Shown piece by piece: positions 6,563 through 13,751 of a stretch of DNA of 64,000 bases (its first letter is position 1; every line of letters begins with the position of its first letter). A model generated the notes under the pieces. It was not told the origin of the DNA. It worked only from the letters and a program-made list of their open reading frames with translations, and did no database searches. A program made the translations under genes and the position numbers. The DNA is from Pelagibacterium limicola. Lineage in GTDB: Bacteria; Pseudomonadota; Alphaproteobacteria; Rhizobiales; Devosiaceae. The stretch spans positions 186,001-250,000 of the forward strand of contig NZ_JADQDB010000003.1 of the NCBI RefSeq assembly GCF_015694405.1, given 5' to 3'.

Positions 6563-6576
6563 TTGATTTCCGTCAA
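6563..6576. promoter_or_regulatory. FNR/FixK box 1 (TTGAT-N4-GTCAA)
   Basis: The sequence TTGATTTCCGTCAA matches the FNR/FixK consensus TTGAT-N4-ATCAA at nine of ten conserved positions. Its centre is 6569.5, so a class II promoter (centre at -41.5) would start transcription near 6611. A plausible -10 element lies at 6597-6604 (GATACTGT). The first downstream gene begins at 6790, which would leave an untranslated leader of about 180 bases. A FixK-type regulator is encoded at 10686-11354. Confidence 0.65.
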
Positions 6577-7018: not shown

Positions 7019-7032
7019 TTGATCGAAGTCAA
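7019..7032. promoter_or_regulatory. FNR/FixK box 2 (TTGAT-N4-GTCAA)
   Basis: The sequence TTGATCGAAGTCAA has the same half-sites as box 1 (TTGAT and GTCAA). Its centre is 7025.5, so a class II start would fall near 7067, and a -10-like TAAAGA sits at 7055-7060, exactly where expected. The ATG of the next gene is at 7087. The spacing fits a FixK- or FNR-activated promoter for the gene pair 7087-10203. Confidence 0.75.
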
Positions 7033-7086: not shown

Positions 7087-7470
7087 ATGGACCGCAATCG
7101 CCCACATTTCTTCAAGATCAGGCTCGAACTGGCGCGCGAAACGCACAGTCCTTCGGGAGACGCCCGCACTGGCTACGAATTCGTTGCACCGCTCGACGAT
7201 GAGGGACGGATTTGGGGCGACTTATGGGAAGACGAGCCCGCGAGCTGCATGGTGCGGTTCTTTACGCCCGGCCAGCAGGACCGCAAGGGCATGCTTGAGC
7301 GGGACGAGAACGGCGAATGGTATTTCGATTACGACGAATCCCGTTCCAGCGACGACGAGCATGGATACCGGTTCGGGGACGAAAGGTTCATCATCGGCGA
7401 ATATGTGTCGATCGCGGATGCGGGGGACCAAATGCATACCTACCGCGTTACGCAGGTAGAAAAGCCCTGA
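7087..7470 (+). CDS. Hypothetical acidic protein, putative FixK-regulon member (127 aa)
   Basis: An uncharacterised soluble protein of 127 residues. I chose the ATG at 7087 because a GGAG site lies seven bases upstream and the FNR/FixK promoter ends near 7067; an alternative upstream start at 7063 would fall before the predicted transcription start. The protein is acidic and rich in Asp, Glu, Tyr and Trp, with beta-strand-like segments (MVRFFTPGQQDRKGML, FIIGEYVSI, HTYRVTQVEK). There is no signal peptide. It is followed after 51 bases by the Pat-type acetyltransferase gene and is probably cotranscribed with it. Function is unknown. The context suggests a role during oxygen limitation. Confidence 0.75.
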   Translation: MDRNRPHFFKIRLELARETHSPSGDARTGYEFVAPLDDEGRIWGDLWEDEPASCMVRFFTPGQQDRKGMLERDENGEWYFDYDESRSSDDEHGYRFGDERFIIGEYVSIADAGDQMHTYRVTQVEKP

Positions 7471-7521: not shown

Positions 7522-10203
7522 ATGACCATCCGTAATCTCGACAAAGCGTTTCATCCCACATCGATTGCCATCATCGGCGCTTCGGAACGTCCCGGCTCCG
7601 TAGGCGAAAAAGTGCTGGCGAACGTCCTCGCTGCCGGGTTCGAGGGGCCGGTTTGGCCGGTCAATCTCAAATACGACACTTTAAAGGGGATAGCTTGCTA
7701 TCGCGATGTCGGCCAATTGCCAGGCGCGCCCGACCTGGCCATCATCGCCACTCCAGCGGCGACCGTTCCCAGCCTGATCGCGCAATTGGGCGCACGTGGC
7801 ACGCGGGCGGTCGTTGTGCTGAGCGCGGGCATCACCGATAGCAACGGCCTTCGGCAGAAAATGCTCGATGCGGCCCGTCCCCATACGCTACGCATTTTTG
7901 GTCCCAATACCATCGGCCTCGTCTTGCCGAGCCAGAAGGTTGATGCGAGTTTCGCGCACCTTTTCCCCTTGCCCGGTCGGCTCGCCCTGCTGAGTCAATC
8001 CGGCGCCATTGCAACGACGTTGATCGATTGGGCGCGTGCGCGGGGAATCGGATTTTCCCACGTGATCTCGATGGGCGATATGGCGGATGTCGATTTCGGC
8101 GATTGTCTGGACATGCTGGCGCGCGATCGGGAAGCCAGCGCGGTCCTGATGTATCTCGAAACAGTCACCAATGCGCGCAAATTCATGTCGGCCGCACGCG
8201 CTCTGTCGCGGATCAAGCCGGTCGTCGCGGTGAAGTCGGGGCGGCACGCACAATCTGCCAAGGCTGCTGCCACGCATACCGGCGCGCTTGCAGGTGAAGA
8301 CGGGGTATTCGATGCAGCGCTGGAGCGGGCAGGTATCGTTAGGGTCGATACGCTCGAAAATCTCTTTGCTGCCGCGCAGGTTTTGACGCGGGTTCCTGCC
8401 CGCGCCAAAGCTCGCACTGCCATTGTAACCAATGGCGGCGGCGCGGGTGTCCTTGCGCTCGATGCGCTGCTCGATCACGGCGGCAATCTCGCTGAGCTGT
8501 CGCCGGATACCCTGGGCATGCTCGACAAGCTGCTTCCCGATGCGTGGTCTCACGCCAACCCGGTCGACATCCTCGGCGACGCACCCCCCGAACGCTACGC
8601 GCAGGTCCTCAGAACTGTGGCGCGCGACCCGGGAGTCGATACGGTTCTTGCGTTAAGTTGTCCTACGGGTCTCGCGTCGACGGCTGACAGTGCCAACGTC
8701 ATCGCCGGTATGGCAAACAACGGGATGGTCGAGGGCAAGCCGCTCATCACGTCCTGGCTCGGCGACTTTACCGGCGCTCCGGCGCGCGCGATCCTCGATG
8801 CGGCGGGTATTGCGAGCTTTGAAACGCCTGCCCAGGCCGTCAATGCAATCAGCTACCTCGAACGGCGCACGGAAGTCGGAGCCGCCTTGTTGCGCGTCCC
8901 CGAGGTAGGGAGCGAAGACGTACGTGTGGACGATCCAGCGTTGGCTGAGATCCTCGCGCAGGCGCGGCGAGAGGGCCGCACGATGTTGCTGGAGGACGAG
9001 GCCAAGCAGTTCCTCTCCCGCTTCGGCCTTGCGGTGCCGCGATCGCAATTTGCGGAAACCGCAGACTCAGTCGGCGAGAAGGCCGACTGCCTGCTGTCGG
9101 AAGTCGACACTGTGGTCGTAAAGCTCGTTTCCAAAGCGATCTCACACAAATCCGACATCGGAGGCGTGGTTTTGGGTCTCCGCACGCGTGAGGATTGTAT
9201 CGCTGCGGCAAATTCAATCAGTGAGCGACTGTCCCAGGCGCATCCGGGCCTGGTCCCGGACGGCTTCCTGATTCAGGAGATGGTTTCGATCCCCCACGCC
9301 CGTGAGGTGCTGATCGGAACGCATACCGATCCCATTTTCGGCCCGGCCATTCTTTTCGGAGCAGGCGGGATCGCCGCCGAGACCGTCGGTGATACGGCAA
9401 TGGCCCTGCCCCCACTGGACGACAAGCTGGCGGGCGACCTCATTGGAAAGACACGCATTTCCCGCGTCCTCGGGGCGTACCGGAACGTGCCTGGCGCAAA
9501 CCGGACAGCATTGATCGAAGCCTTGATCGAGGTTTCACGCCTCGTGGCAACATTTCCCGAAATCGAGAGCATGGACATCAATCCCCTGCTCGTCGGCACG
9601 GAGCGTGCGGTCGCGCTGGACGCACGTATCGTGATCAGGGCGGACTTCGACCACGAAAAGGCGGCGGATCGACTCTCCCTCAAGCCCTACCCTTCTGGCT
9701 GGGATATCCGTTTCGACGCGCAGGACGGAGACAGCTACGACATCAGGCCGATCCGCCCCACCGACGTGAGCCTCTTTCCCACGTTTTTCCAGAAGGTTAC
9801 GATGGAAGACATCCGGATGCGTTTCCATGTGGCCAAGCGCGACTGGCCGCAAGATACGCTCGTGAGGCTGACGCAGATCGACTATGATAGGGAAATGGCC
9901 TTTGTTGCCATCGACACGGCGACCGGCGATTTAGCGGGCGTCTCCCGGCTCTATAGCGACCCCGATCGCGAAGAGGCCGAGTACGCCATATTCGTCCGCT
10001 CCGACCTGCAAGGCTACGGCCTGGGGCGGGCGCTGCTCGACCATTTGCTGACTTACGCACGCGCAGACGGTATCGGAACGGTGTTGGGCGATGTCTACGC
10101 CGGAAATTCCAAAATGCTGGAACTCTGCAGGGAACTGGGGTTCAGGATGGCCTCCAGACCAGATGATGGGGGCGTGCATCGCGTGTCGATCAGGCTGCGC
10201 TGA
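7522..10203 (+). CDS. pat: Pat-type protein lysine acetyltransferase (acyl-CoA synthetase NDP-forming-like plus GNAT)
   Basis: An 893-residue protein that should acetylate lysines of metabolic enzymes using acetyl-CoA. Members of the family inactivate acetyl-CoA synthetase and other acyl-CoA ligases. Domains in order: CoA-binding Rossmann domain (about 8-130, IIGASERPGSVGEKVL), succinyl-CoA-ligase-like flavodoxin domains (about 145-450, including LLSQSGAIATTLIDWA), ATP-grasp domain (about 475-690, VVVKLVSKAISHKSDIGG) and a C-terminal GNAT domain (about 730-893) with the acetyl-CoA loop near LQGYGLGRALLDHLL. This is the architecture of enterobacterial PatZ/YfiQ and Rhodopseudomonas Pat. It lies 51 bases after the 127-residue gene, downstream of FNR/FixK box 2, and its 3' end overlaps the convergent gene at 10190 by 14 bases. 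Confidence 0.9.
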   Translation: MTIRNLDKAFHPTSIAIIGASERPGSVGEKVLANVLAAGFEGPVWPVNLKYDTLKGIACYRDVGQLPGAPDLAIIATPAATVPSLIAQLGARGTRAVVVLSAGITDSNGLRQKMLDAARPHTLRIFGPNTIGLVLPSQKVDASFAHLFPLPGRLALLSQSGAIATTLIDWARARGIGFSHVISMGDMADVDFGDCLDMLARDREASAVLMYLETVTNARKFMSAARALSRIKPVVAVKSGRHAQSAKAAATHTGALAGEDGVFDAALERAGIVRVDTLENLFAAAQVLTRVPARAKARTAIVTNGGGAGVLALDALLDHGGNLAELSPDTLGMLDKLLPDAWSHANPVDILGDAPPERYAQVLRTVARDPGVDTVLALSCPTGLASTADSANVIAGMANNGMVEGKPLITSWLGDFTGAPARAILDAAGIASFETPAQAVNAISYLERRTEVGAALLRVPEVGSEDVRVDDPALAEILAQARREGRTMLLEDEAKQFLSRFGLAVPRSQFAETADSVGEKADCLLSEVDTVVVKLVSKAISHKSDIGGVVLGLRTREDCIAAANSISERLSQAHPGLVPDGFLIQEMVSIPHAREVLIGTHTDPIFGPAILFGAGGIAAETVGDTAMALPPLDDKLAGDLIGKTRISRVLGAYRNVPGANRTALIEALIEVSRLVATFPEIESMDINPLLVGTERAVALDARIVIRADFDHEKAADRLSLKPYPSGWDIRFDAQDGDSYDIRPIRPTDVSLFPTFFQKVTMEDIRMRFHVAKRDWPQDTLVRLTQIDYDREMAFVAIDTATGDLAGVSRLYSDPDREEAEYAIFVRSDLQGYGLGRALLDHLLTYARADGIGTVLGDVYAGNSKMLELCRELGFRMASRPDDGGVHRVSIRLR

Positions 10204-10675
10204 GCTCCGCGATATCGTGTACTTCGACCGACCGGACACCGGGATCGCTGAGAATAGTATCTATGATCGCGTGCAGGATCGATCTCAGCCCGTAGATCAA
10301 GAGTACGAAATGTCCCTGCGAAAGATCCTGAGCAATCTTTTCGGCGGTGGGTTGGGAAGCCCACGCGAAAATGTCGGCGAGGCAGTTCGCTGTGAACGAC
10401 GGGGCCGTCCCTCCTTCCGGATGGCGCGACCCTTCCCAGACACCGCCCAACCGGAAAACGGCAGGTCGCCCTTTGGTGTCGGCTGGCAGCACTGCGTCAG
10501 GCCCGGCGAGTACGGCCATGTCCGCCAGATCGATGCCTCTCTCCTCTATCCGGGAAAAACCGGCAAGCAGCGCGGCGAGATCGGCAAATGCGCAGACAGC
10601 AACGCGATGCGTCCATTGACCTCGTAGGTCGGCGCTCGATGTCCCCCCATCGCGTTTTCGGGAAACTGAGGTCAT
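10190..10675 (-). CDS. Uncharacterised protein encoded downstream of fixK (161 aa)
   Basis: A 161-residue protein I do not recognise. I prefer the ATG at 10675, which has an AGGG site eight bases upstream and lies just after the fixK stop; an upstream in-frame ATG at 10714 would overlap fixK by 29 bases. The C-terminal third (VLLIYGLRSILHAIIDTILSD and PGVRSVEVHDIAEL) looks like an amphipathic helix followed by a strand, and there is no signal peptide. The gene is in the same direction as fixK and ten bases away, so the two are almost certainly cotranscribed. It could modulate FixK or the sensor kinase, as FixT does for FixL in Sinorhizobium, but I see no sequence similarity to FixT and the idea is speculative. 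Confidence 0.75.
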   Translation of the reverse strand: MTSVSRKRDGGTSSADLRGQWTHRVAVCAFADLAALLAGFSRIEERGIDLADMAVLAGPDAVLPADTKGRPAVFRLGGVWEGSRHPEGGTAPSFTANCLADIFAWASQPTAEKIAQDLSQGHFVLLIYGLRSILHAIIDTILSDPGVRSVEVHDIAELSAA

Positions 10676-10685
10676 TTGCACCGCC

Positions 10686-11354
10686 CTAATGAAGTCCGAC
10701 GTCGCAGTCGCCAATCCGTCTCAGGCGCTGCATGTCGTTGATGGCGACAACGCCGCTACGCGGCAGGCTGATAATGCCCATCGAACGGAGCTTGGAGATA
10801 TTGCGGCTTACCGTTTCGATGGTCAGTCCGAGGTAATCGGCGATGTCGAGACGGGTCATCGGCACGCCAACCACATCGGCCGCAGTTGAACGACGGCGAT
10901 CGGCGAGCGCGCACAGGAAGTTGGCAACCTTTTCGATAGCGGATTTGCGGCACAAGACTATGGAAAGGTTTTGCGCGGCGCTGATTTCCCGTGCGGCCAT
11001 CTCGAGCATCTTCTCGCCGAGATCAGCGCGCTCGCGCACCATGCGCATCAGGTCGCCTTTTGGAATCACGCGAACACGGGAGAAGACGACAGCGTCGCAG
11101 TCGTAACTATAGGTATCCCCTTGTCCGAGGCCAATAACGTCCCCGGGAAACGCGAAGGAAATGATCTGGCGCCGTCCGTCCTGGAACAGTTTGTAGACGC
11201 GGATGACACCCTCGATCACTTCATAGAGGTGATCGGCGTCATCACCTTCGAAAAGGAGCGGCTCGTGAGGACGTACGGTGCGTATGGCCGGATCGCGCGA
11301 GGGCATCGGCGCCGAAGCGTAGGCAGTATTCTCAATAGCAAGTGCAGAAAGCAT
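10686..11354 (-). CDS. fixK: FixK-type Crp/Fnr family transcriptional regulator
   Basis: A 222-residue regulator of the Crp/Fnr superfamily. The N-terminal cyclic-nucleotide-binding-like barrel covers about residues 25-125, and the C-terminal helix-turn-helix covers about 160-200. The recognition helix LTIETVSRNISKL carries the E-x-x-S-R residues that read TTGAT half-sites in FNR and FixK. The N-terminus lacks the cysteine cluster that holds the [4Fe-4S] centre of FNR and FnrN, and the four cysteines present (about 86, 135, 148, 217) do not match that spacing, so this is a FixK-type, not an oxygen-sensing, member. I chose the ATG at 11354 because GGGGAG precedes it. It is divergent from the response regulator, with tandem GTTACA repeats in between. 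Confidence 0.88.
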   Translation of the reverse strand: MLSALAIENTAYASAPMPSRDPAIRTVRPHEPLLFEGDDADHLYEVIEGVIRVYKLFQDGRRQIISFAFPGDVIGLGQGDTYSYDCDAVVFSRVRVIPKGDLMRMVRERADLGEKMLEMAAREISAAQNLSIVLCRKSAIEKVANFLCALADRRRSTAADVVGVPMTRLDIADYLGLTIETVSRNISKLRSMGIISLPRSGVVAINDMQRLRRIGDCDVGLH

Positions 11355-11429
11355 TCGATGTCTCCCCGGGAGGCTTAAATCGCGTTGGGGAGACAATGGC
11401 TGCTGGCGGTAACGCGCTTGCGCCCGCCA

Positions 11430-11455
11430 TGTAACGAAATGTAACAATGTGTAAT
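11430..11455 (-). promoter_or_regulatory. K-box-like tandem repeats (GTTACA-N4-GTTACA) between fixK and fxkR
   Basis: Three direct repeats with a 10-base period lie at 11430-11435 (TGTAAC), 11440-11445 (TGTAAC) and 11450-11455 (TGTAAT). Read on the fixK strand they give ATTACA-N4-GTTACA-N4-GTTACA. As I recall, the K-box bound by FxkR upstream of fixK in Rhizobium etli is GTTACA-N4-GTTACA. Ten-base direct repeats are typical of OmpR/PhoB-type regulators. The site is 76-101 bases before the fixK ATG and 37-62 bases before the preferred fxkR ATG, so it could control both genes. Confidence 0.75.
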
Positions 11456-11491
11456 TATGGACTGGTGAGTGATTCAAGCTTCAGGAACGGC

Positions 11492-12220
11492 ATGATCGAT
11501 CGGGCAGGAGCCCACATCCTGATCGTCGACGACGACCCGATGGTACGGCGTATGCTGCGCCGATGCCTCGAGGATGAAGGTTATCAGATATCGGAGGCAA
11601 CCGATGGTGATGGGGTGCGTGAGTACTTGTCGCAACCGCTCGACCTCATCACTTTGGATCTCAATCTGGGGAGCGCCGACGGCCTTACGGTCGCCCGCGA
11701 GATCCGGCAGCATTCGGAAGTCCCCATCATCATGATCACCGGCAAAGGCGACATGATCGACCGTATCGTGGGACTCGAAGTCGGCGCCGACGACTATATC
11801 GCCAAGCCCTTTCACGTGCGCGAAGTTCTGGCGCGCGTGCGCTCGGTGTTGCGCCGCTCGACGGCTCGGGCTCCCAAGCCTGACACGGCGACTCCGCAGC
11901 CGGAATCCGGTCTCGCCTTCAACGGCTATTTTCTCGATCCAGAAAGGCGGACACTGACTGGGCCCGATGGGCCTGTCGCGCTGACCACCGGGGAGTTCGA
12001 TCTTCTGGCACTTTTTGCCTCCAACCCCAACCGCGTGCTCAATCGTGACCAGATCATGGACAAGCTCAAGGGGTATGAGTGGGCACCACTCGACCGCAGC
12101 ATCGATAACCAGATCGCCCGGCTGCGGAAAAAAATCGAGGTCGATCCCAAGAATCCCACACTGCTCAAAACAGTGAGAGGTGCGGGCTACACGTTTGCAC
12201 CGGAGCGCTCTAGCCGCTGA
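11492..12220 (+). CDS. fxkR: OmpR/PhoB-family response regulator, FxkR-like
   Basis: A 242-residue two-component response regulator. The receiver domain (about 7-120) has the acidic pocket (VDDD, residues 12-15), phospho-acceptor Asp56 (LITLDLNLG), conserved Thr83 (MITGK) and Lys105 (IAKPF). The C-terminal winged-helix DNA-binding domain (about 140-240) has the family features LTTGEFDLLALFASNPNRVL and KTVRGAGYTF. I chose the ATG at 11492, preceded by AGGAA; an earlier in-frame ATG at 11447 lies inside the tandem GTTACA repeats. Divergent from fixK and convergent with the FixL-like kinase, with an 11-base tail overlap. This arrangement and the repeats match FxkR, which replaces FixJ in the hFixL pathway. 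Confidence 0.87.
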   Translation: MIDRAGAHILIVDDDPMVRRMLRRCLEDEGYQISEATDGDGVREYLSQPLDLITLDLNLGSADGLTVAREIRQHSEVPIIMITGKGDMIDRIVGLEVGADDYIAKPFHVREVLARVRSVLRRSTARAPKPDTATPQPESGLAFNGYFLDPERRTLTGPDGPVALTTGEFDLLALFASNPNRVLNRDQIMDKLKGYEWAPLDRSIDNQIARLRKKIEVDPKNPTLLKTVRGAGYTFAPERSSR

Positions 12221-13751
12221 ACGCCTCGGCGATTGCCTCGGCGAGATCTACCAAACGGTAGGGCTTGCGGAGCACTTTCAGTCGCGCTGCGGCGAGTGTT
12301 TCCGATCGGGTCAATTCTTCAGCATAGCCCGAGGTCAGAAGCACCTTGATATGGGCGAACGTCTCGCGCGCTTCCCTGGCCAGATCGTAACCCGACATGC
12401 CTCCGGGCATCACGAGATCGGTAAACATCAGTTCGATATCGGTGTTGGCCGCCAGGATATTCATCGCATCCTTGCCGTTTTCCGCTTCGACGACGCGATA
12501 GCCGAGTTCCTTGAGGCGCGAGACGGTAAGCTTGCGTACCCGCTCGTCATCCTCAACCACGAGAATCAGCTGGCCCTGGCCGTAGGCAGTGACCGAACGC
12601 GGTGTGTCTGCCGCCTCGGGGGCCTGGTCCTTGAAGCGGGGCAAATAGAGGTTGACGGTCGTCCCCTGCCCCTGTTCGCTGTAGATCGTCGCGTGTCCAC
12701 CCGATTGCTTGGCGAAGCCATAGATCATGGAAAGGCCGAGACCAGTGCCCTGCCCCTTTTCCTTGGTGGTAAAGAAGGGCTCGAAAGCTCGGTCCCGCAC
12801 CTCCTGGGGCATCCCAGTCCCGGTGTCGGCAACCGAAAGCCGGACATAATCCCCCGGTAAAAGTCCGGCGTCGGCGCCGTCTTCATCGACATGCACATTC
12901 GCCGATTCGATCGCGAGGCGGCCGCCTTCGGGCATTGCATCTCGAGCATTGAGCGCCAGGTTCACGATGGCGCTCTCGACCTGCGAAGGGTCCGCCCGCA
13001 CGGTCCAGAGATTGGGGCTCAGGGCATTGGAGAGCAGGATCGTCTCGCCCAGCGTGCGGTGGAGCATGTCGGTGAGATCGAGTACGAATGTGTTGAGATT
13101 GACTGGCTCGGGCTCGAGATGGCTGCGGCGGGCGAATGCGAGGAGGCGCGCGGTCAGTCGCGCACCGATCTCGGCAGCCTCGAGCGCATCGCCAGCGAGT
13201 TCACGCTGCTGATCGGTGGTGAGGCGTCCCTCCAGCATTTCGAGATTGCCGATGATCACGGTCAGCAAATTATTGAAATCGTGAGCGATTCCACCCGTCA
13301 ACTGGCCCATCGCTTCCATTTTCAGCACTTCACGCAGGGCCTGTTCCGTGGCCTTGTGTTCGGTCAGATCCCGTATGATGCCCGCAAAGTGTTGCTCCCC
13401 GTCGATTTCGAACTCGCTTACGGCAAGGTGGACAGGAAAGATCGTTCCGTCTTTTCGCCGCGCCTGCACCTCACGCCCGATTCCGATGATCTTTTTTCGA
13501 CCGGTGGTGCGGTAGGCGTTGAGATAGCCGTCATGCTCGGAATGGTAGGGCTCGGGCATCAGGAAATGAACGTTTTTCCCGATAAATTCGTCGTGCTCGT
13601 AGCCAAAAAGTCGCTCTGTGGCCGGGTTCACGGTCTTGATGAGTCCGCCCCTGTTGATCGTGATGATCGCATCGACCGCCGTATCGAGGATGGCGATGAG
13701 TTTTGCGGCTTGTCCGGCTAGCGCGGGGTCGTTCCTGAATCGCTCAATCAT
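12210..13751 (-). CDS. fixL: FixL-like hybrid histidine kinase with heme-PAS domain (hFixL)
   Basis: A 513-residue cytoplasmic hybrid sensor kinase with no membrane helix. The PAS domain (about 15-135) contains [23 protein letters not shown], cited in part, and [13 protein letters not shown]. Against Bradyrhizobium FixL from memory, the proximal heme ligand His200 corresponds to His73 and Arg220 to Arg93, while Arg206 and His214 are replaced by Ala79 and Lys87. The kinase core has phospho-acceptor His157 ([11 protein letters not shown]), an N-box ([14 protein letters not shown]) and G-boxes ([16 protein letters not shown]). A C-terminal receiver (about 390-510) has phospho-Asp in [10 protein letters not shown]. 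This is the hFixL layout known from Rhizobium etli. A GTG four codons upstream (13763) is an alternative start. The likely signal is oxygen. Confidence 0.88.

Follow-up and report, generated by a model that had tools for sequence, protein, structure and literature searches.

We analysed a 64,000-nt stretch of the Pelagibacterium limicola genome (C5:186001-250000, here called the window; handles beginning with C, G, L and f denote contigs, genomes, loci and families), which belongs to a 3.47-Mb assembly that is 99.6% complete. Three adjacent genes lie between window positions 10686 and 13763: a Crp/Fnr-type regulator gene on the minus strand, a divergent gene for an OmpR-type response regulator, and a histidine kinase gene that is convergent with the latter. 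The named Pfam domains of all three proteins exceeded their cut-offs (Table 1). An initial annotation had read these genes as a complete oxygen cascade of the hFixL-FxkR-FixK type, consisting of a hybrid kinase with a FixL-type heme-PAS domain and a C-terminal receiver, an OmpR-type regulator in the place of FixJ, and a FixK-type regulator without Fe-S cysteines. The predicted domains, heme residues, clades and FxkR target site (K-box) described below agree with this assignment in each of its parts, and the locus very probably encodes an hFixL-FxkR-FixKf oxygen cascade for microaerobic respiration outside nodule symbiosis.

The kinase is a hybrid in which the HisKA and HATPase domains are followed by a C-terminal receiver. 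About 20 residues precede the PAS domain according to the Pfam domain bounds, leaving little room for a membrane segment. In a PDB search, the PAS domain matched the FixL heme-PAS structure 2cmn (E value, 6e-36), and the top match overall was to the kinase core 5idj. The signature HDGYLNAY...KIIGIGR retains the proximal histidine and the pocket arginine of FixL, which we take to correspond in numbering and roles to H200 and R220 of Bradyrhizobium; both residues were invariant across eight aligned kinases, and the domain is predicted to bind heme. All trees were quick reconstructions, supported by the Shimodaira-Hasegawa-like approximate likelihood ratio test (SH-aLRT) only. In a tree of the PAS domains (53 sequences), the 41 sequences with the heme signature, including those of the window kinase and of S. 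meliloti and B. japonicum FixL, were split from 12 signature-less sequences (SH-aLRT, 85); this support is moderate because the non-heme sequences are long-branched. A comparison of this kind had been proposed with the initial annotation, and it places the window kinase with the FixL heme-PAS domains. In the whole-kinase tree, the window hFixL grouped with its own family (13 sequences, including two orphan Rhizobium copies; support, 99). The heme signature was also present in kinases at the FxkR loci of f1, f4, f22, f38, f75, f107, f159, f168, f172, f173, f174, f178, f186, and f193.

Two of these families have kinases of a different build. In the f186 (L267 5434-7356) and f172 (L270 5068-7503) kinases, the heme signature lies in an N-terminal PAS domain that is followed by a second PAS domain before the kinase core. 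Both had seemed signature-less in their last 540 residues, but the full sequences carry the signature, and the idea that sensors had been swapped while the FxkR-FixK output stayed constant was abandoned.

The regulator fell into an FxkR clade of 47 sequences that also holds R. leguminosarum and S. meliloti FxkR and was separated from 14 other sequences chosen as the outgroup (SH-aLRT, 95). According to the accessible text of PMC4999443 and PMC7888657, the FxkR site is GTTACA-N4-GTTACA. One exact K-box, oriented towards fixK, lies in the gap between fixK and fxkR, and it is the sole exact copy in the genome. Because a reversed control pattern was equally rare, with one copy in the genome, the position of the K-box carries weight rather than its rarity. 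The site ends 75 nt before the ATG of fixK, compared with 85 nt for R. leguminosarum fixK9a and 88 nt in S. meliloti, so that the predicted promoter geometry resembles the rhizobial one (cf. the accessible part of PMC7888657). All 26 family loci with divergent fixK and fxkR (the window and L075-L099) had a K-box with at most one mismatch, 16 of them exact and 10 with one mismatch, a level reached in 0.02% of gaps shuffled by mononucleotides. In the same gaps, other spacers (3, 5, and 6) and the opposite strand all gave at least three mismatches, and a reversed half-site reached one mismatch in 1 of the 26 and two mismatches in 3. A third half-site with at least four of six matches on one side was seen at 9 of the 26 loci, where about 2 were expected by estimate. 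Outside the family set, 21 of 24 loci had a K-box with at most two mismatches, often as GTCACA or GATACA repeats (shuffles, 0.58%). Exact K-boxes were present in 30 of the 121 sampled family genomes, divided equally between the 26 genomes that have the cluster (15) and the 95 that lack it (15).

The third protein was most similar in the PDB to B. japonicum FixK2 (4i2o; E value, 1.7e-36), and its sequence in the tree has no cysteine among the first 60 residues. The FnrN protein of the same genome, by comparison, has three N-terminal cysteines, and its gene lies beside hemN (L105). In the FixK tree, in which support was moderate, some branches were long and one fork was open, the window FixK grouped with other cascade FixK proteins and the genome's FnrN (SH-aLRT, 85), apart from S. 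meliloti FixK and B. japonicum FixK2 (83). A position near FnrN and away from classical FixK is what the accessible text of PMC4999443 describes for FixKf, and the window FixK appears to occupy this position.

The three proteins have diverged together. Pairwise distances of regulator, kinase, and FixK were correlated (r = 0.85 to 0.92; 24 genomes with all four proteins, RpoB included), and the partial correlations corrected for RpoB were 0.85, 0.81, and 0.73, with none of 1,000 permutations as high. The correlations of the cascade proteins with RpoB were lower (0.62 to 0.72). An RpoB match was obtained in 25 of the 30 genomes searched, the G119 match being partial, and 24 of the 25 entered the distance test, G647 being dropped since no kinase had been extracted. 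Whether judged by RpoB or by any of the three cascade proteins, the closest relatives were one and the same pair of genus mates.

The survey of the family that the initial annotation had called for found the kinase and regulator genes side by side and convergent in 26 of the 121 genomes (27 loci), including 3 of 13 in the genus of the window. In 25 of the 26 family loci other than the window (L075-L100), fixK was divergent from fxkR. The fetched flanks of 17 of the 25 loci L075-L099 contained nirK, pseudoazurin, cco, or hemN. The FxkR clade spans 17 families including that of the window, plus Terrarubrum, and f22, f38, f75, and f107 belong to other orders. It has two halves. One (support, 90) holds R. 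leguminosarum, S. meliloti, f4, f38, f159, f168, f193, and G018; the other (support, 85) holds the rest of the window's family, Terrarubrum, f22, f75, f107, f156, f172, f173, f174, f177, f180, and f186; and f178 has one member in each. Family f4 is probably Rhizobiaceae, because it includes a regulator almost identical to the one in R. leguminosarum. G018 belongs to the same family as the window but has a version that groups with the rhizobial half (FxkR 46% identical to the window's), and f38 sits in that half although it is of another order. Since these two placements conflict with RpoB, transfers of the module have occurred. Of the loci L075-L099, 10 of 25 were kept in the regulator and whole-kinase trees, 11 in the FixK tree, and 7 in the PAS tree. 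L040, a duplicate of L100, was dropped, and proteins with an internal stop were left out. In a survey of genome contigs, the search patterns fell on generic kinase motifs; the 80 kept among the loci listed were mostly generic hybrids by titles and scores, and L179 alone was used, as a tree sequence.

Candidate targets of FixK were sought with the box TTGA-N6-TCAA, which occurs 47 times in the genome, compared with 12 times for the reversed pattern; 26 of the 47 were intergenic according to a rough gene finder. One box stands 81 bp upstream of ccoN, from which a DUF2249 gene diverges; others stand 17 bp upstream of cydA, from which cydD diverges, and 59 bp upstream of hemN. Usp, flavodoxin-like, SCP2-domain, and DUF4342 genes are also preceded by boxes. 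The boxes at the terminal-oxidase and heme genes support the general microaerobic role that had been suggested for the predicted cascade. The scans of the window did not contradict the absence of fixNOQP reported for it, but the genome does carry ccoN (643 bits; cut-off, 583), nirK, cydA/cydD, and hemN. The 25 family loci together contained 32 boxes, compared with 3 for the control, and an exact box lay in the nirK upstream region at 4 of the 5 family loci examined. With up to two mismatches allowed, TTGAT-N4-ATCAA gave 24 sites in the window against 18 expected, which is no clear excess.

The range first given for the cascade (10190 to 13751) does contain the three genes, but its start takes in a further open reading frame (ORF). 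Target sites had been described as packed together with the genes, which holds for the K-box; the exact FixK boxes of the window lie outside that range, to its left. The surroundings had been described as sugar uptake and housekeeping genes, but the small gene and the acs-GNAT gene on that side are candidate members of the FixK regulon. In S. meliloti (L109), acs-GNAT adjoins hfixL and has a FixK box at 55 bp, and the small gene has exact FixK boxes at about 63 bp (L259) and about 137 bp (Terrarubrum L007). No exact box was found at the other six acs-GNAT loci looked at. Judged by leader and frame, the best start of fixK is ATG 11354, which is preceded by GGGGAG, and the hfixL ORF overlaps the 3' end of fxkR by 11 nt.

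Table 1. Genes and sites at the predicted hFixL-FxkR-FixKf locus (window positions)
Feature	Position	Strand	Basis and remarks
fixK, FixKf-type Crp/Fnr regulator without N-terminal Fe-S cysteines	10686..11354	-	PF00027 and PF13545 over cut-off; ATG 11354, ORF open back to 11477
fxkR, OmpR-type response regulator	11492..12220	+	PF00072 and PF00486 over cut-off; better start ATG 11492, alternative 11447
hfixL, heme-PAS hybrid histidine kinase with C-terminal receiver	12210..13751	-	PAS, HisKA, HATPase_c, Response_reg; ATG 13751, ORF open back to GTG 13763
FixL-type heme-PAS domain	13326..13700	-	Proximal His H77 (numbering of the GTG-started ORF), pocket Arg R97; aligned to 2cmn and 8js5
K-box GTTACATTTCGTTACA, predicted FxkR site for fixK, possibly for fxkR autoregulation	11430..11445	-	Exact consensus match
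Third half-site ATTACA, in 10-bp phase with the K-box (putative role)	11450..11455	-	K-box with one mismatch at 11440-11455
FixK/Fnr box TTGATCGAAGTCAA, 54 bp before the start at 7087	7019..7032	+	Exact match
Second FixK/Fnr box TTGATTTCCGTCAA, not directly followed by a clear gene	6563..6576	+	Exact match
Small gene, candidate FixK target and possible start of an acs-GNAT operon	7087..7470	+	No Pfam match; relatives at cascade loci L007, L076, L259, L271
acs-GNAT (acyl-CoA ligase and acetyltransferase), candidate FixK target	7522..10203	+	Pfam; adjoins the cascade in S. meliloti L109; relatives in L259, L261, L271, L275, L284, L286
Possible gene 3' of fixK	10190..10714	-	Two genus mates have a 39-41% identical ORF next to fixK; no Pfam or NCBIfam domain match

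In addition to the cascade genes, markers of symbiosis were examined. The best nifH match in this genome scored 27.5 bits, far under the cut-off of 394, and nodA gave no match. Judged by these two markers, with the remaining nif and nod genes not searched, the host is no nodule symbiont, and the description of the genome as apparently non-symbiotic stands to that extent. The same markers were checked in 57 genomes carrying either the cascade or a regulator resembling FxkR (26 of the family and 31 others), chosen through the fetched loci and hence not at random. The nifH gene was over the cut-off in 3 of the 57, none of them among the 26 of the family, and nodA was found in 1, G332, as a partial 34-bit match over a 22-bit cut-off. 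FixJ is a response regulator of a type other than OmpR. A reading of the locus as classical FixLJ was rejected, as the regulator is OmpR-type by Pfam and an S. meliloti FixJ query gave no match at E ≤ 1e-25 in this genome. Some FixJ match was obtained in 29 of the 42 genomes given, the closest in the family being in G067 (62%) and G110 (56%).

The window was then compared with known systems. Plasmid pRL9 of R. leguminosarum 3841 has the same hybrid heme-PAS kinase, OmpR-type FxkR, and FixK without an N-terminal cysteine cluster, with a K-box before fixK and FixK boxes before oxidase genes; identities to the window proteins are 54% for FxkR, 49% for hFixL, and 38 to 39% for FixK. On pRL9, however, hfixL follows fixK9a and fxkR stands with fixK9b, whereas hfixL of the window is convergent with fxkR; the pRL9 hFixL has an extra N-terminal part; and nifH and nodA were not found in the window's genome. 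R. etli has the same cascade as R. leguminosarum, as far as the accessible literature states. In S. meliloti, a pSymA-type plasmid shares with the window the divergent fixK and fxkR with an exact K-box and the acs-GNAT neighbor with a FixK box, but hfixL follows fixK and the cascade coexists with FixLJ, whereas FixJ was not found in the window's genome by the above search. A plasmid of the forest-soil bacterium Terrarubrum flagellatum (L007) shares the gene order, with hFixL convergent and fixK divergent, and the small neighbor gene; it differs in that its FixK sits, long-branched, with classical FixK, its K-box has two mismatches, and the cbb3 oxidase genes ccoN, ccoO, and ccoP are nearby. 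The classical FixL-FixJ-FixK cascade has a heme-PAS sensor and a FixK output in common with the window, but its FixK is of the other branch and its FixJ is unmatched here.

Several observations weigh against the assignment of the window genes to this cascade. The kinase is below the cut-off of the curated NCBIfam equivalog NF041777, which bears the name sensor protein FixL (219.5 bits; cut-off, 850), with rhizobial hFixL not scored alongside, and FixK is below the curated FixK model NF050806 (168.3 bits; cut-off, 300), whose name points to Caulobacter FixK and thus to the classical branch. In the whole-kinase tree, generic hybrid kinases are scattered among the hFixL proteins, and this tree alone therefore defines no hFixL clade. 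One of the 27 family loci (G018) has fixK 4 kb away, and the kinase match of G118 (L097) contains an internal stop. In the loci outside the family set, the opposite strand came to two mismatches from the K-box in 11 of 24, which the near-palindromic half-site probably explains, and four cases of at most two mismatches arose with other spacers. Six cluster-less family genomes have an exact K-box right beside other OmpR-type regulators (42 to 50% identical to the window's), at G044:C261:363, G012:C24:7151, G027:C202:3331, G003:C142:14707, G057:C1:3982555, and G047:C47:103362. The motif is therefore not exclusive to FxkR, and it was rejected as stand-alone proof. For the FixK boxes, 21 of the 47 lay inside genes according to the same gene finder, and others precede genes that fit poorly, encoding a benzoate transporter, a solute-binding protein, an MFS transporter, and an ArsR-type regulator. 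At family loci, an exact box preceded 1 of 4 ccoN and 0 of 5 hemN genes examined. FnrN may also use the same boxes; sharing of sites by FnrN and FixK in rhizobia is described in the accessible text of PMC7888657.

In the proposed mechanism, oxygen bound to the PAS heme would hold hFixL off. When oxygen drops, hFixL would autophosphorylate and pass the phosphate to FxkR, with its own receiver serving as a sink or gate for phosphate. Phosphorylated FxkR would bind the K-box and switch on fixK, and it may also act on its own divergent gene, by repression or tuning. FixK would then bind the TTGA-N6-TCAA boxes before high-affinity oxidase, heme-synthesis, and stress genes, and the Fe-S protein FnrN, encoded in the same genome, would share these boxes.

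It is unlikely that the same cascade instead senses another diatomic gas (NO or CO) or the redox state of heme and so tunes denitrification. Heme-PAS domains can bind NO, and 12 of the 25 loci L075-L099 have a flanking nirK. Nevertheless, the pocket has the His and Arg of oxygen-sensing FixL, the FixK boxes precede oxidase and heme genes, and the nirK of this genome is on another contig (L106). The genes could also be neighbors that do not form one pathway, with FxkR answering another kinase and the K-box being a mere autoregulatory site of the OmpR type. The K-box-like sites beside other OmpR-type regulators fit this explanation, as do the FxkR-clade regulators of f156 and f177 and the isolated kinase copies of R. 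sullae and R. etli 8C-3, both described below. However, the divergence of all three proteins remains correlated after RpoB correction, the convergent hFixL/FxkR layout is constant in the family, and the K-box faces fixK, which makes separate pathways very unlikely.

A recent acquisition of the cascade from a symbiotic rhizobium would be in line with the conflict between the module trees and RpoB seen for G018 and f38. In contrast, the window FxkR falls among the sequences of its family (SH-aLRT, 98), within the half that lacks named rhizobia, and the agreement of all three proteins and RpoB on the closest genus mates also speaks against such an acquisition, leaving this origin the least probable of the explanations considered.

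According to the accessible text of a 2016 analysis (PMC4999443), the hFixL-FxkR-FixKf system originated in a common ancestor of the Rhizobiaceae, and orthologs are given for R. etli, R. leguminosarum, and S. meliloti among the genomes studied. The non-symbiotic Agrobacterium tumefaciens is also named there, so that non-symbiotic occurrence as such is not new. No account of the cascade in Devosiaceae was found in the literature searched (titles and abstract openings of the papers listed, with most subscription journals outside the coverage). The contribution of this study is the distribution: the FxkR clade extends over 17 families and more than one order, compared with the Rhizobiaceae origin stated in the accessible part of PMC4999443. 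Both this distribution and the sites give good support to the view that the circuit is a general microaerobic one and that the rhizobia hold one branch of it. An origin before symbiosis, which the initial annotation had raised, fits the distribution and is favored; it is not proven, because the module has moved horizontally. Taken as a whole, we lean slightly towards hFixL-FxkR-FixKf being an old, mobile alphaproteobacterial circuit for microaerobic respiration and denitrification, common to many non-symbiotic families, with rhizobia using one branch and with the FxkR-clade regulator parted from the heme sensor and FixK in f156 and f177. If it works as predicted, the legume-nodule switch would be one use of a general low-oxygen circuit that is open to study in free-living bacteria.

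Some further loci were recorded. In f156 (L275, L282, L284, and L285) and f177 (L280), an FxkR-clade regulator stands beside a hybrid kinase with an incomplete heme His/Arg signature, and FixK relatives above the threshold were absent from the fetched stretches; these loci appear to be a related system with other partners. Megaplasmids of Rhizobium sullae and R. etli 8C-3 carry hFixL copies (L008 8001-9515 and L009 8001-9527) that are 69 to 70% identical to the window's, and no FxkR or FixK match or exact K-box was found within 8 kb of them. The FxkR of S. meliloti 1021 (L013 8001-8701) was in two pieces by tblastn and in one piece in most other strains listed.

In the host genome, a FixK-type box lies 93 bp before the SCP2-domain gene (L308 2382-2956). 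SCP2-domain proteins act in oxygen-independent ubiquinone synthesis, a role with which this gene would fit the FixK regulon. Another such box lies 49 bp before a TsoY-family gene (L296 2581-3864), whose product gave no match in the Pfam scan and was named through NCBIfam (NF047644, 503 bits). Finally, the hFixL-FxkR-FixK cluster of L083 (G067:C11:205356-211600) has, within a few kilobases, a FixJ relative (62%) and another FixK-like gene, so that both oxygen cascades may lie side by side there.

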